Of a DNA stretch of 64,000 bases, positions 48,807 to 53,415 are shown piece after piece. Origin of the DNA: Hydrogenophilales bacterium 16-64-40 (GTDB lineage: Bacteria > Pseudomonadota > Gammaproteobacteria > Burkholderiales > Thiobacillaceae); the NCBI GenBank assembly GCA_002256995.1, contig NCGX01000003.1:1-64000 (forward strand). Reading direction: 5' to 3'. Each line of letters begins with the position of its first letter. Position 1 is the first letter of the stretch. The notes under the pieces are model-generated. The model ran no database searches and was not told where the DNA came from. It was given only the letters and a program-made list of their open reading frames with translations. A program made the translations under genes and the position numbers.

Positions 48807-50765
48807 CTAGGCGCTCATCCTCTCCAGCGCCTCGATCTGCTCCGACAACTCCATCCACTTGCCCTCCTCGCGCGCCAGTTCCGCGTCGACGTGCTGCAAC
48901 TGCGCGCCGGTTTCGGTAATCGCCTCGACCGACAGCGTCCCGGCCAGGCGCGCTTCAAGCGCTGCCTTTTCCGCATGAAGCGCCGCCATGCGCTTGTCGA
49001 GCTTTTCCAGTGACTGCCTGAGTGGTTTCAGTTTGCCACTCGGCGCCGCACGCTTCTCAGCCGCGGCCGCCGGCGCCGGCTTGGGCAACTCGGCGGCCTT
49101 GCCAGCCTCCTTCAGGCTTTCGCGCAGGCGCTTGCCCTCATCCAACAGATAGCGCTGGTAGTCGTCCAGGTCGCCGTCGAACGGCTCGACGCCGCCGCGT
49201 GTGACCAGCCAGAATTCGTCGCAGACGGATCGCAGCAGGGCGCGGTCGTGGCTGACCAGCATAACGGTGCCCTCGAATTCATTCAGTGCCATCGCCAGCG
49301 CCTCGCGCGTGGCCAGATCCAGGTGGTTGGTCGGTTCGTCGAGCAGCAGCAGATTGGGACGCTGCCACACGATCATGCACAGCACCAGGCGCGCCTTCTC
49401 GCCGCCGCTCATGGTACCGACCGCCTGCTTGACCATGTCGCCGTTGAAGTTGAAGGTGCCAAGAAAGGTGCGCAGATCCTGCTCGCGGCTGCTGAACTGG
49501 CCGGCGCCGCCGTTGGCGAGGGTGTCGCGGGCGAGGCGGATCATGTGTTCCAGCGGGGTGTCGGCGGGGCGCAGCACGTCGAGCTCCTGCTGCGCGAAGT
49601 AGCCGATGTTGAGGCCGCGGCCCTCGATCACTTCGCCTGCGACCACCGGCAGGGTGCGCGCGACCGTCTTCACCAGCGTCGATTTGCCCTGGCCGTTGGC
49701 GCCGAGGATGCCGATGCGCTGTCCGGCAAACACCGATTTGCTGACGTGCTGCACGATCACCGTCGATGGCGTGCCGGGCGGCGAACCGGCAGGCGGCGGG
49801 TAGCCGAAGCTGGCGTCGTCGATCGACAGCATCGGGTTGGGCAGGTTGAGCGGCTCCTTGAATTCGAAGGTGAATTCCGCATTCGCCAGCATCGGCGCCA
49901 GGCGCTCCATCCGATCGAGCGCCTTGACCCGGCTTTGCGCCTGCTTGGCCTTGCTGGCCTTGGCCTTGAAGCGGTTGATGAACTCCTGCAGATGGGCGAT
50001 CTTGTCCTGCTGTTTGGAAAACGCCGCCTGCTGCAGTGCCATCTGCTCGGCGCGCATGTCCTCGAAGGTGCTGTAGTTGCCGCCGTAGCGGGTGAGCTGG
50101 CCGTTTTCGATGTGGATCGTGACATTGGTCACCGCATCGAGAAACTCGCGGTCGTGGCTGATCACCAGCATGGTGCCCGGATATTTCTTGAGCCAAGCCT
50201 CCAGCCACACCAGCGCGTCCAGGTCCAAGTGGTTGGTCGGTTCGTCGAGCAGCAGCAGCTCCGACGGGCACATCAGCGCGCGCGCCAGCTGCAGCCGCAT
50301 GCGCCAGCCGCCGGAAAAGCTGTTGACCGGCTGGTTCAGCTCGCGCACCTGGAATCCCAGCCCGAGAATCAGCGACTGCGCGCGCGACTGCGCGTCGTGC
50401 GCGCCGGCGTCGTGCAGCGCCATATAGGCGTGCGCCATGCGTTCGCCGTCGTCGCTTTCCTCAGCGGCGGTCACCTCGGCCTGCGCCGCAGCCAGTTGGG
50501 TGTCGCCGGCGATGACGAAATCGGTCGCGGACTCGGCCGTTTCCGGCATGTCCTGCGCCACCTGCGCCATGCGCCACTGCGAAGGGATGGAAAAGTCGCC
50601 TTTATCCTCGTGCAGGGTGCCGTTCAGGAGCGCGAACAGGCTCGACTTGCCAGCGCCGTTTCGCCCCACCAGGCCGACCCTTTCACCGGGGTTGATCGAT
50701 ACCGACGCGTTGTCGAGCAGGACCTTGGCACTACGCCGCAGGCTGAGATTCTTGAGGATAATCAT
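48807..50765 (-). CDS. ABC-F family ATPase (YheS/Uup type)
   Basis: A 652-residue protein with two ABC domains: Walker A GRNGAGKSS and GANGQGKST, signatures FSGGWRMRLQLAR and MSGGEKARLVL, and Walker B LLLLDEPTNHLD twice. Between them is the P-site tRNA interaction motif linker, and a C-terminal coiled coil lies at about 575-650. It acts on ribosomes, not in transport. The start MIILKNLSLRR at 50765 fits the family. Of the ABC-F subgroups it most resembles YheS. Confidence 0.93.
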   Translation of the reverse strand: MIILKNLSLRRSAKVLLDNASVSINPGERVGLVGRNGAGKSSLFALLNGTLHEDKGDFSIPSQWRMAQVAQDMPETAESATDFVIAGDTQLAAAQAEVTAAEESDDGERMAHAYMALHDAGAHDAQSRAQSLILGLGFQVRELNQPVNSFSGGWRMRLQLARALMCPSELLLLDEPTNHLDLDALVWLEAWLKKYPGTMLVISHDREFLDAVTNVTIHIENGQLTRYGGNYSTFEDMRAEQMALQQAAFSKQQDKIAHLQEFINRFKAKASKAKQAQSRVKALDRMERLAPMLANAEFTFEFKEPLNLPNPMLSIDDASFGYPPPAGSPPGTPSTVIVQHVSKSVFAGQRIGILGANGQGKSTLVKTVARTLPVVAGEVIEGRGLNIGYFAQQELDVLRPADTPLEHMIRLARDTLANGGAGQFSSREQDLRTFLGTFNFNGDMVKQAVGTMSGGEKARLVLCMIVWQRPNLLLLDEPTNHLDLATREALAMALNEFEGTVMLVSHDRALLRSVCDEFWLVTRGGVEPFDGDLDDYQRYLLDEGKRLRESLKEAGKAAELPKPAPAAAAEKRAAPSGKLKPLRQSLEKLDKRMAALHAEKAALEARLAGTLSVEAITETGAQLQHVDAELAREEGKWMELSEQIEALERMSA

Positions 50766-50848
50766 GCAAAAGATGCAGCGCACAGGACACGCGCCGCCAA
50801 AACCGAAAGCAGGATTCTACCCTGTCGGTCAAGTTCGCCCGCCCGTGA

Positions 50849-50872
50849 TGTCGGCCGTTTGCCGCTTCGACA
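50849..50872 (+). promoter_or_regulatory. Candidate enhancer site for a sigma-54 activator
   Basis: An inverted repeat TGTCG-N14-CGACA about 120-140 nt upstream of the -24/-12 promoter. Bacterial enhancer-binding proteins commonly bind such dyads at this distance. Only 5-bp arms, so tentative. Confidence 0.35.
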
Positions 50873-50877
50873 CAGGT

Positions 50878-50893
50878 TGACGGCTTTCCGTCA
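50878..50893. repeat. Small hairpin in the ABC-F/small-gene intergenic region
   Basis: TGACGG-CTTT-CCGTCA, a perfect 6-bp stem with a 4-nt loop. It lies about 110 nt upstream of the ABC-F start codon and upstream of the sigma-54 promoter. No T-run; it may belong to an operator or the ABC-F leader. Confidence 0.35.
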
Positions 50894-50988
50894 GCCCGCG
50901 CAGCCGCCCCAATCGGGCCGCTCAAGCCATCTGTGACAACCCATTGTTTTGTTGATTTATTTTTTCCGTCGCGCGCTTATCGCCCGAT

Positions 50989-51004
50989 TGGCACAGGCTT
51001 TGCA
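50989..51004 (+). promoter_or_regulatory. Sigma-54 (RpoN) -24/-12 promoter
   Basis: TGGCAC-AGGCT-TTGCA, which matches the sigma-54 consensus TGGCAC-N5-TTGC at every conserved position and spacing. Transcription should start about 12 nt after the GC, near 51015, giving a ~28-nt leader with AGGAG (51032-51036) before the ATG at 51043. Orientation and spacing fit the tandem small genes exactly. Confidence 0.85.
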
Positions 51005-51042
51005 GGTATTCAGGCATTACCCCCCTTATCCAGGAGCGCATC

Positions 51043-51195
51043 ATGAAACTACAATTCGGCCAAAGCCAACTGGTTCTCGAACTCAGCGCCTCGCCTTTCG
51101 CCTGGTTTCACGGCCAGACCGAGCGCATGAGCCTCACCAGCCTGTCGCTGCTGTTCGTGCAGCTTTCCCTGTTTGCCCGCCAGCCTGCACTCTGA
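51043..51195 (+). CDS. Small protein A of a tandem paralogous pair (50 aa)
   Basis: A 50-residue protein starting MKLQFGQSQLVLELSASPF and ending FARQPAL, with AGGAG 7 nt before the ATG. It has no signal peptide or long membrane helix; residues 7-45 look like alternating beta strands. It is clearly related to the next protein: LELSASPFAWF aligns with LSLSSSPLGFF, and ERMSLTSLSLLFVQLSLF with YRMSMFSLTLLFIEFRVL. The stop overlaps the start of the next gene as TGATG. A perfect sigma-54 promoter precedes it. I do not recognise the family and assign no function. Confidence 0.8.
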   Translation: MKLQFGQSQLVLELSASPFAWFHGQTERMSLTSLSLLFVQLSLFARQPAL

Positions 51196-51350
51196 TGCAA
51201 GTCGGTCGAGCAACCAGCGTGAGCCTCAGCCTGTCTAGCTCGCCGCTGGGATTTTTCAGCGGCAGTACTTACCGCATGTCGATGTTCAGCCTGACGCTGC
51301 TGTTCATCGAATTCCGGGTGCTGCGGCGGAGCACGCCTTACTACACCTGA
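51195..51350 (+). CDS. Small protein B of a tandem paralogous pair (51 aa)
   Basis: A 51-residue protein (MQVGRATSVSLSLSSSPLGF start, RRSTPYYT end). It is homologous to the preceding protein over about 35 residues, with SP, FF/WF, RMS and LLF conserved in both. It overlaps that gene by one base and is presumably translationally coupled. It converges with the sensor kinase, leaving 10 nt between stops. A duplicated pair with conserved core positions suggests selection on the protein, perhaps as a heterodimer. Function unknown. Confidence 0.78.
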   Translation: MQVGRATSVSLSLSSSPLGFFSGSTYRMSMFSLTLLFIEFRVLRRSTPYYT

Positions 51351-51360
51351 GCCGAACCGC

Positions 51361-52695
51361 TTAGCGGGGAATTTCAAGCACGGCCTCCAGGCCGCCTGTC
51401 GCACGGTTCCGGAGCTCCACTTTCCAGCCATTTGTTTCCGCCAGCTGGCGCACGATCGCCAGCCCCAGCCCGGTGCCTCCCGTGGCCTGCGAGCGCGAGC
51501 TCTCCAGCCGGTAAAACGGCCTGAACACCTTTTTCAGCTGATCGTCAGGAATCCCGGCGCCAGCGTCGCGCACGATCACCTGCGCCAACGTGTCCGAACA
51601 CACCAAAGTCAGCTCGACCGCCGTACCGCCACCGTAACGCTGCGCATTCTGGATCAGGTTGGACACGATCCGCCGCACCGCCAGCCGACCCGCCTCGACC
51701 GTGCACGGCGCCGCGCCCGGCCATGCCAGGCCCGCATCGGCCGCCACCTCTTCCAGCAAATCCGCCAGATCGAAGCGCACTTTCGCCTCGGCCTGGGTGG
51801 TGCGTGCCAGCGCCAGATAACCGGTAATCAGCTTGTTCATGTCGGCCAGATCGGCCACTGCGCGGTTAATCCGCGCGTCGTTGGCGTTGGCGCGGTCAAT
51901 CCGTGCGTCATTGGCGTTGGCGCGGTCGCTGCGCGCCGGATTGGACGTGTCGCGCAGCATTTCCAGATTGAGCTGCAGACGCGTCATCGGCGTGCGCAGG
52001 TCGTGCGAGATCCCCGCCAGCAAGGTGGTGCGGTTGTCCAGCAGTTCGCGCACCTCCGCCGCCATGGTGTTGAAACGGCGGGCGAGTTCGGCGAGCTCGG
52101 CGGGGCCGGTTTCCGGCAAGGGCTCGGGCAACTCGCCCGCGCCGACCTGGCTGGCCGCCCGGGCCGCGCGCGCCAGCGGAACGGTGATGCGGCGCACCAG
52201 AAACAGGGCGGTCAGCAAACTGAGAAACGCGCCGACCCCAACCACTGCGATCGCGGCCAGCGGCGGCTTGACGGCATAACGGTCGGGGAAGAAGCCGACC
52301 CGCAGGTCGTGCCCGCCCACCGGGATATCCAGCCACGCCGCCGTTTTATTCGGCACCCCGCGCAATACGACCGTCTCCCCCACGCGGCGGCTCAGCGCGG
52401 CCTCGATCTGGGTGCGGAAAGCAAACTGCGGCGCGTCCGCGATGGCCCCGACGTCAAGGGTGGTCAGGCGCAGGCCGTGACGGCGCGCCAGCTCTTGTTC
52501 GAACGCCGCCCGCGTCTCGGGCGGCAGCTCCACCCAGGTTTGCGCCGACAGCACGACCAGGCCGGCCAGATCGTCGGCCGAGCGCTCCGCCACCGGCACG
52601 ATCAGGGTACGGTACACCACCCAGAACGCCGCCGCCTGGAACACGATGAAGGCCAGCGCCAGCGTCAACGCGGTGCGGGCGAACAGCGAGCGCAT
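51361..52695 (-). CDS. EnvZ-like sensor histidine kinase
   Basis: A 444-residue membrane kinase: TM1 about 8-30, a periplasmic sensor to about 145, TM2 about 146-168, HAMP about 169-222, HisKA with the phosphorylated H231 (LLAGISHDLRTPMTRLQL), and a C-terminal HATPase with NLIQNAQRYGG (N box), DAGAGIP (G1) and GGTGLGLAIV (G2). Compared with EnvZ, the hairpin after H231 carries an extra ~20 residues made of two copies of DRANANDARI (257-276). It lies 6 nt after its OmpR-like partner. The stimulus is unknown. Confidence 0.95.
   Translation of the reverse strand: MRSLFARTALTLALAFIVFQAAAFWVVYRTLIVPVAERSADDLAGLVVLSAQTWVELPPETRAAFEQELARRHGLRLTTLDVGAIADAPQFAFRTQIEAALSRRVGETVVLRGVPNKTAAWLDIPVGGHDLRVGFFPDRYAVKPPLAAIAVVGVGAFLSLLTALFLVRRITVPLARAARAASQVGAGELPEPLPETGPAELAELARRFNTMAAEVRELLDNRTTLLAGISHDLRTPMTRLQLNLEMLRDTSNPARSDRANANDARIDRANANDARINRAVADLADMNKLITGYLALARTTQAEAKVRFDLADLLEEVAADAGLAWPGAAPCTVEAGRLAVRRIVSNLIQNAQRYGGGTAVELTLVCSDTLAQVIVRDAGAGIPDDQLKKVFRPFYRLESSRSQATGGTGLGLAIVRQLAETNGWKVELRNRATGGLEAVLEIPR
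51868..51927. repeat. 30-bp tandem repeat inside the sensor kinase gene
   Basis: Two adjacent 30-bp units (51868-51897 and 51898-51927) differ at two third-codon positions only. They encode the decapeptide DRANANDARI twice. Being a multiple of three, the copy number could vary without breaking the frame. Confidence 0.92.
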
Positions 52696-52701
52696 GCCGG
52701 C

Positions 52702-53415
52702 TTAGCCTTTTCCCTGCGGCACGAACAGATAACCCTGCCCGCGCTGGGTTCGGATGTAGGCCGGATTGGCCGGATCGTCCTCGATTTTCTTGCGTAGGCG
52801 ATTCACCCGCACGTCGATGCTGCGGTCGAACGGGTCGCGCTCGAAACCGCGCAGCTGGTCCATCAGCCAGTCGCGCGACAGCGCGCGGTTGGCGTGAGTG
52901 ACGAAAATTTCCAGCAGCTCGTATTCGCCGCTGGTCAGCGTGATTTCGGCGCCGTCGCGGCTGAGCGTGCGGGCGTCCAGGTTGGCGCTGAACGGGCCGA
53001 ACTGCACCCGCCGCGCGGTTTCGGCCGCCGCCGGCGCGGCTGCCCCGCCGTGTCGCCGCATCACCGCGCGGATGCGCGCCAGCAGCTCGCGCGGGTTGAA
53101 GGGTTTGGGCAGGTAATCGTCGGCGCCGACTTCGAGGCCGATGATGCGGTCGATATCCTCGCCCTTGGCCGACAGCATGATGATGGGCGGAAATCCAGGC
53201 TGCGCACGCAGCCGACGCGCCACCGACAGGCCATCCTCGCCCGGCATCATCCAGTCGAGCACCAAGAGGTCGGGCAGCCGGGCGGCGAGCAGGCGATCGA
53301 GCGAGGCCGCGTCTTCCGCGGTCTCGACCGTGTAGCCATGGCCCGTCAGGTATTCGGCCACCAGTTCGCGAATGCCGGGGTCGTCGTCGGTTACGTAAAT
53401 CACGTCTTTTTCCAT
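52702..53415 (-). CDS. OmpR-like response regulator
   Basis: A 237-residue regulator. Receiver domain: acidic pocket DDD at 10-12, phospho-acceptor D54 (LVLDWMMPGEDG), and the KPFNPRELLARIRAV segment nearly identical to OmpR. The C-terminal winged helix (about 140-235) includes LTSGEYELLEIF and RSIDVRVNRLRKKIE. It is cotranscribed with the kinase. GTTACA direct repeats upstream suggest autoregulation. Confidence 0.96.
   Translation of the reverse strand: MEKDVIYVTDDDPGIRELVAEYLTGHGYTVETAEDAASLDRLLAARLPDLLVLDWMMPGEDGLSVARRLRAQPGFPPIIMLSAKGEDIDRIIGLEVGADDYLPKPFNPRELLARIRAVMRRHGGAAAPAAAETARRVQFGPFSANLDARTLSRDGAEITLTSGEYELLEIFVTHANRALSRDWLMDQLRGFERDPFDRSIDVRVNRLRKKIEDDPANPAYIRTQRGQGYLFVPQGKG

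Follow-up and report, generated by a model that had tools for sequence, protein, structure and literature searches.

Tandem genes for small, predicted beta proteins behind an apparently enhancer-controlled sigma-54 promoter in Thiobacillus and its relatives

Two short genes, here called A and B, stand in tandem behind a sigma-54-type promoter in a contig of Hydrogenophilales bacterium 16-64-40 (NCGX01000003.1, positions 1 to 64,000; this whole 64-kb stretch is referred to as the window). The question they raise is what such a pair encodes, and under what control it would be made. The features at issue are the following.

50989..51003, + strand: -24/-12 (sigma-54) promoter TGGCACAGGCTTTGC, found in strict form at 45 of the 46 genus loci
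51032..51036, + strand: Shine-Dalgarno AGGAG of gene A, recognised by sequence, with GGAG columns conserved across aligned upstream regions
51043..51195, + strand: gene A, 50 aa, a predicted five-stranded beta protein
51195..51350, + strand: gene B, 51 aa, a paralogue of A, with a one-base overlap with A (TGATG)

The coordinates and ATG starts of the two genes, their TGATG overlap, the AGGAG ahead of A and the perfect -24/-12 promoter are all as an earlier note, made from the letters of the window, had described them. Judged by sequence, A and B are paralogues. Their local BLOSUM62 alignment scores 89, against a best score of 28 for A with the other 120 ATG-started open reading frames of 40–70 aa in the window and a best score of 47 for A with 2000 shuffles of B (z about 15), and a profile–profile comparison agrees (98.1%, E 1e-13, 49 columns). 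The homology proposed in the earlier note stands but its extent of some 35 residues does not, as the shared part covers about 45 residues, nearly the whole protein. Loci were inspected in 51 of 53 carrier genomes (46 of the genus Thiobacillus, g1, and three and two of the sister genera g28 and g36; G004 and G030 were left out), and in every one of the 51 A is followed by B; a one-base overlap between the two, stop on start, occurs in 42.

Both genes are under purifying selection. The median pairwise ratio of nonsynonymous to synonymous substitution (dN/dS) across the 46 genus loci, a comparison that the earlier note had proposed, is far below 1 in each: A has 0.12, with 1034 usable pairs out of 1035, and B has 0.21, with 1021. 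In both, third codon positions are the most variable. The two frames are coding. A short transcript is expected and the intergenic region is large, so it could be argued that the message works as a leader or as RNA in its own right, and that the frames within it are incidental. The low dN/dS and the diversity at third positions speak against this, no match was found in Rfam, and there is nothing downstream to attenuate because the next gene is convergent, where a leader peptide operon would have a co-directional regulated gene. The chance that the RNA is the active product is close to negligible.

Homologues with a conserved reading frame, on which the earlier note had staked its proposal, are found in related genomes, A being matched at E <= 0.01 in 53 of 117 genomes of the family: 48 of 56 in Thiobacillus, three in g28 and two in g36. 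Absences among the 117 are soft, because non-carriers were tested with A alone and this search overlooked the diverged copies of G071 and G090. A search with A at E <= 1 gave matches in 34 of 60 related genomes; four of the 34, G042, G046, G050 and G057 from the order, matched only above E 0.5 and were taken as chance. Among named genome contigs 50 loci were found, labelled Thiobacillus or just by a higher group, and including T. denitrificans RG, T. thioparus DSM 505 and one metagenome-assembled genome labelled Rhizobium. When 399 genomes of the order, Burkholderiales in GTDB, were searched with an A+B profile, 15 had matches at E <= 0.001, and the profile widened by new members gave 18 at E <= 0.01. 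Those kept after reading belong to the own genus (4), to another genus of the own family, g31 (2), and to the families f50 (8), f29 (1) and f35 (1). The members from g31, f50, f29 and f35 are apparently single genes, giving single-copy relatives in two genomes of another genus of the family and in 10 genomes of three other families of the order; the doubled form is confined, among the lineages found, to g1, g28 and g36. G215, matched by the first A+B profile, was not recovered by the better one and was dropped, as were, on reading, G363 and G392, which the widened profile had matched and in which no promoter was seen. A class-wide search of 369 genomes left only the own genome as a carrier; the match in G606 has an internal stop and no clear frame and was rejected.

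The earlier note had recognised no family, and none of Pfam, PHROGs, NCBIfam or PADLOC supplied a convincing one. NCBIfam had no match to A or B at E <= 10, and PHROGs no relative. For 48 members, PADLOC returned 0 defence families and Pfam a lone match (YkpC, one member, E 0.051), which was disregarded, as was the lone match among PDB sequences (E 0.53), where there is no solved relative. Phages and plasmids gave no match by tblastn with A as the query, patterns from alignments A1 and A2 found 0 relatives in viral contigs among 14 and 24 pattern matches, and no description of the family appeared among the matches listed in searches of the open-licence PMC literature. These searches bear on a further explanation, that the pair is a toxin–antitoxin or anti-phage module, or a phage remnant, as two short overlapping genes might be; moreover, among predicted viral folds the closest belong to very small beta proteins of phages, at E 0.04 or worse. 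Against this stand the lack of any PADLOC, PHROGs, phage, plasmid or viral-contig relative, the mutual homology of A and B, the occurrence of single copies alone, and a mostly constant syntenic place, with an ABC-F gene adjacent in 45 of the 46 genus loci, and this explanation is highly improbable. The family looks undescribed, real and old, and its conservation, its promoter and the lack of a known family support the earlier suggestion of an undescribed small-protein system.

The promoter TGGCACAGGCTTTGC is the only strict TGGCAYN5TTGC in the window, the whole genome having 38 such sites against 8 for a reversed control pattern, and its -24 GG and -12 GC are spaced as in sigma-54 transcription units. 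The strict matches of the genus lie 50–54 nt before the ATG of A, the remaining locus being off at the first base. Both g36 loci are strict and all three g28 loci are off at the first base; 12 more distant loci include nine that are strict, two that are off at the first base and one, L054, with TGGTAT. A sigma-54-type site, either strict or a one-base variant, thus stands 41–58 nt before the gene in 63 of 63 inspected loci, and the A+B family is apparently enhancer-controlled. Three elements farther upstream are relevant to how this control may work.

50849..50872, no strand assigned: inverted repeat TGTCGGCC...CTTCGACA, a candidate for a second activator site
50878..50894, no strand assigned: dyad TGACGGCTTTCCGTCAG, a candidate for the enhancer site at which the sigma-54 activator would bind
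50937..50949, - strand: site like that of integration host factor (IHF), CAACCCATTGTTT, one mismatch from YAANNNNTTGATW, then an AT tract; conserved CA/TTGTTTT columns

In an alignment of 46 upstream regions the dyad and the IHF-like element are conserved and the inverted repeat partly so, with TGTCG or CGACA near the position of the latter in many, not all, g1 loci. The conserved Thiobacillus dyad, TGACGGNTTTCCGTCA, lies about 111 nt before the promoter, and 42 of the 46 genus loci have a 17-mer ending CGTCAN at 110–113 nt from the -24 GG. A dyad matrix derived from the genus reaches a shuffle p < 0.05 in nine of 17 non-genus loci, seven of these at 101–113 nt from the promoter; the nine comprise all three of g28, both of g36, both of g31 (at 189 and 218 nt), and the f35 and f29 loci. 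With this matrix the dyad is matched, more loosely, in five further lineages (g28, g36, g31, G395 and G144). TGACGGN4CCGTCA has a single exact occurrence in the genome, at the dyad, but when one mismatch is allowed the reversed control pattern is commoner than this one, and the argument from the dyad is therefore one of conservation, not rarity. IHF-like sites with at most one mismatch to YAANNNNTTGATW, the IHF consensus, occur in 28 of 46 g1 loci (1.2 expected from shuffles), in seven of eight f50 loci (0.9 expected) and in two of five g28 and g36 loci together (0.4 expected). The conserved dyad and IHF-like sites strengthen, at the level of sequence, the earlier claim that the operon is activator-dependent, and a sigma-54 activator may have its target at the dyad near -110.

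As to the proteins, AlphaFold modelled A from 48 rows with a mean predicted local distance difference test score (pLDDT) of 88.1 and a predicted template-modelling score (pTM) of 0.58, placing strands at residues 2–5, 8–14, 19–25, 29–36 and 39–46. Oily and polar residues largely alternate along these strands in the 48 sequences, where F22, T26 and E or Q at position 40 are found in all 48, R28 and S33 in 45 and G24 in 44. One oily face on a sheet of 50 residues suggests, from the model, that A dimerises. Fold searches with this model gave nothing significant. The reading we prefer, tentatively and with somewhat less than even confidence, is that A and B are enhancer-controlled, probably cytoplasmic all-beta adaptors of about 50 residues in a PrsR-type surface or exopolysaccharide response. 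An enhancer-binding protein (EBP) would bind the dyad near -110, IHF would bend the DNA, and the EBP would open the sigma-54 promoter, so that A and B would be made only when it switches on the sigma-54 RNA polymerase. The bicistronic message would couple their synthesis. Each chain would form a five-stranded sheet with one oily face, most likely as part of a dimer, of the A-B type in Thiobacillus and a homodimer where there is a single copy, and the conserved F-x-G-x-T-x-R hairpin would bind a partner. The proteins would thus not be enzymes but small adaptors or inhibitors with a regulatory role, most likely within a surface or exopolysaccharide response in PrsK–PrsR genomes, with PrsR or a PrsR-like EBP as the activator.

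PrsR (TIGR02915) was found above the curated cut-off in 53 of 61 hand-picked genomes, the own genome and all 38 then-known carriers included, and since G071 and G090, first counted as non-carriers, carry a diverged copy, all 40 tested carriers have PrsR. The 21 non-carriers are divided into 13 with PrsR and eight without, and no family member was found in the eight genomes lacking PrsR above the cut-off. This co-occurrence is suggestive only, given the relatedness of the genomes, the incompleteness of some, and the fact that most absences of the family were judged from searches with A alone. The A+B operon of G063 and of G062 lies about 8.5 kb from prsR. The genome has 11 strong PF00158 (EBP) matches, and two other EBP types, labelled by eye, were considered as activators at a strict threshold of E <= 1e-150 (the carriers G064 and G136 being incomplete) and did not follow the carriers: a GlrR-like EBP was missed in four of 12 carriers and present in four of the eight genomes without PrsR, and a VpsR-like EBP was missed in nine of 12 carriers.

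A rival explanation would place A and B in the canonical PrsR regulon, to be produced together with PEP-CTERM proteins when flocs or biofilms form. Besides the presence of PrsR in every tested carrier, the half-site TGTCGR is common to many loci of the family, three f50 loci have TGTCGA-N8-ACA at 81–83 nt from the promoter, which is inside the geometry of the PrsR box, and the promoter of a PEP-CTERM gene of G137, TGGCACAGGCATTGC, recurs unchanged at many A+B loci. One paper describes a 17-nt motif ending TTTACA about 63 nt ahead of PEP-CTERM-type promoters (Haft 2006, PMC1569441), and another reports a PEP-CTERM gene, Aquincola pepA, to be RpoN-dependent (PMC9850573). The surroundings of PEP-CTERM genes in six genomes, 68 stretches in all, were searched with a pattern that itself required TGTC or TTTACA, and yielded 20 sites that resemble the box and are followed by a promoter-like site. 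Leaving out L209 and L219, the other 18 (within L187–L254) are of the form TGTCGRNNTWTTTTACA, lie 68–107 nt before -24/-12-like sites, and make up an explicit PrsR box matrix. No full box stands upstream of A+B here, and nearly all g1 loci score low with the matrix; TGTCG is common at other sigma-54 sites too, and A and B have no PEP-CTERM match in NCBIfam (E <= 10) and no PEP motif in either sequence. Canonical membership is doubtful. Elsewhere in the same genome, a sigma-54 site at position 94683 (L182, G000:C60) has a PrsR box (TGTCGAATTAATTTACA) that begins the control region 82 nt upstream of its -24 GG, ahead of a frame for a 79-residue membrane-looking protein; by its sequence, L182 is likely to be a PrsR target without PEP-CTERM.

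Several observations weigh against the preferred reading of A and B as adaptors in a PrsR-type response. The canonical 17-nt box TGTCGRNNTWTTTTACA, expected about 80 nt before the -24 element, is missing upstream of A+B in the window, where the best score is -0.3 compared with 25.0 at L182, and this leaves the activator of A+B unproven. In addition, 13 of the 61 genomes carry PrsR although no member of the family was detected in them. The dyad matrix built from the genus matched none of the f50 loci (0 of 8) and reached p < 0.05 at six of 30 other sigma-54 sites of the genome, some of them beside genes that look nif-like. IHF-like sites with at most one mismatch are found in none of the two g36 loci and none of the four f29, f35 and g31 loci (0.2 expected in those four). 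Finally, A and B modelled as one chain (L032) reached a pLDDT of only 43.8, so that this fused model says nothing on a complex; of the heteromeric pair envisaged in the earlier note, the pairing is plausible, given the amphipathic sheet, the translational overlap and the two copies in one branch, but the complex is unconfirmed.

The neighbouring genes offer another way of placing the pair.

48807..50783, - strand: ABC-F ATPase, divergent neighbour, whose start bounds the control region
51361..52695, - strand: EnvZ-like sensor kinase, convergent with the pair and next to it in 45 of 51 A+B loci
52702..53415, - strand: OmpR-like response regulator, next to the kinase

The main rival to a dimeric adaptor is that A and B are connectors of this EnvZ/OmpR-like system, which, on a sigma-54 input, would bind and bias the sensor kinase. 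The persistence of the convergent kinase favours it, as two of the six loci that lack it have contig ends within 300 bases, and the single-copy genes of both g31 loci adjoin a kinase that is 44–45% identical. In the other four (L007, L011, L013 and L051), however, there is enough flank and no such kinase adjacent, and none was found in the stretches searched for f29, f35 and f50. The neighbourhood has further recurrent elements: glyQ lies 240–300 nt upstream in g28 and g36, in place of the ABC-F gene, 2.3–4.0 kb upstream in nine g1 loci, and next to the family gene in g31 and G395 as well. Since glyQ and kinase neighbours recur across lineages, the position of the locus is old and inherited, and the order glyQ–gene–kinase in g28, g36 and g31 may be mere inheritance. 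A connector role is, on balance, unlikely. A fuller version is quite improbable, namely that a homodimeric beta adaptor with its own sigma-54 enhancer was duplicated in the Thiobacillus branch to give an obligate A-B heterodimer linking an EBP signal to the EnvZ/OmpR-like system; if true, it would represent a new class of connector protein. Two side observations concern the neighbours themselves. The kinase gene carries a short in-frame tandem repeat (RANANDARI units, at about 51859–51937 of the window), and in the f50 loci L147, L148 and L149, where the single-copy member lies between a glycerate kinase-like gene and a small divergent gene, the latter (MDASSIKYGGCYSNGIYG and the like) also looks conserved.

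Annotation easily overlooks small proteins, and A and B come with a predicted switch. T. denitrificans and T. thioparus are named species that carry the family, in which the condition of expression and the partner would be directly testable, and the single-copy and doubled forms offer an example from nature of tandem duplication giving rise to a protein pair.

Among known systems, the PrsR/PEP-CTERM-box promoters (PMC1569441, PMC9850573) are similar to those of A+B in having a -24/-12 element, enhancer-dependent as that of A+B appears to be, and a 17-nt upstream site that starts TGTCGR in many loci, but they differ in the right half (TTTTACA, against CGTCAR in A+B), in the distance (mostly about 80 nt, against about 111 nt) and in products, those of A+B being without a PEP-CTERM domain. 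The best fold match to A in the PDB was the N-terminal part of RseB (TM 0.66 over about 42 columns), which at E 0.34 is not significant. RseB, a periplasmic protein, has a beta sheet, as is predicted for A, but is much larger. CsrA/RsmA proteins, dimers of about 50–60 residues with five beta strands, were considered for their length and strand number and rejected, a profile–profile comparison with three CsrA/RsmA sequences giving 0.4% probability. Other small proteins under sigma-54 control, such as PspG, are produced when an EBP and sigma-54 call for them. A and B are likewise small and apparently sigma-54-controlled, with no sequence relation to PspG in Pfam or NCBIfam; unlike PspG, they are two paralogous, soluble-looking beta proteins encoded in one operon.
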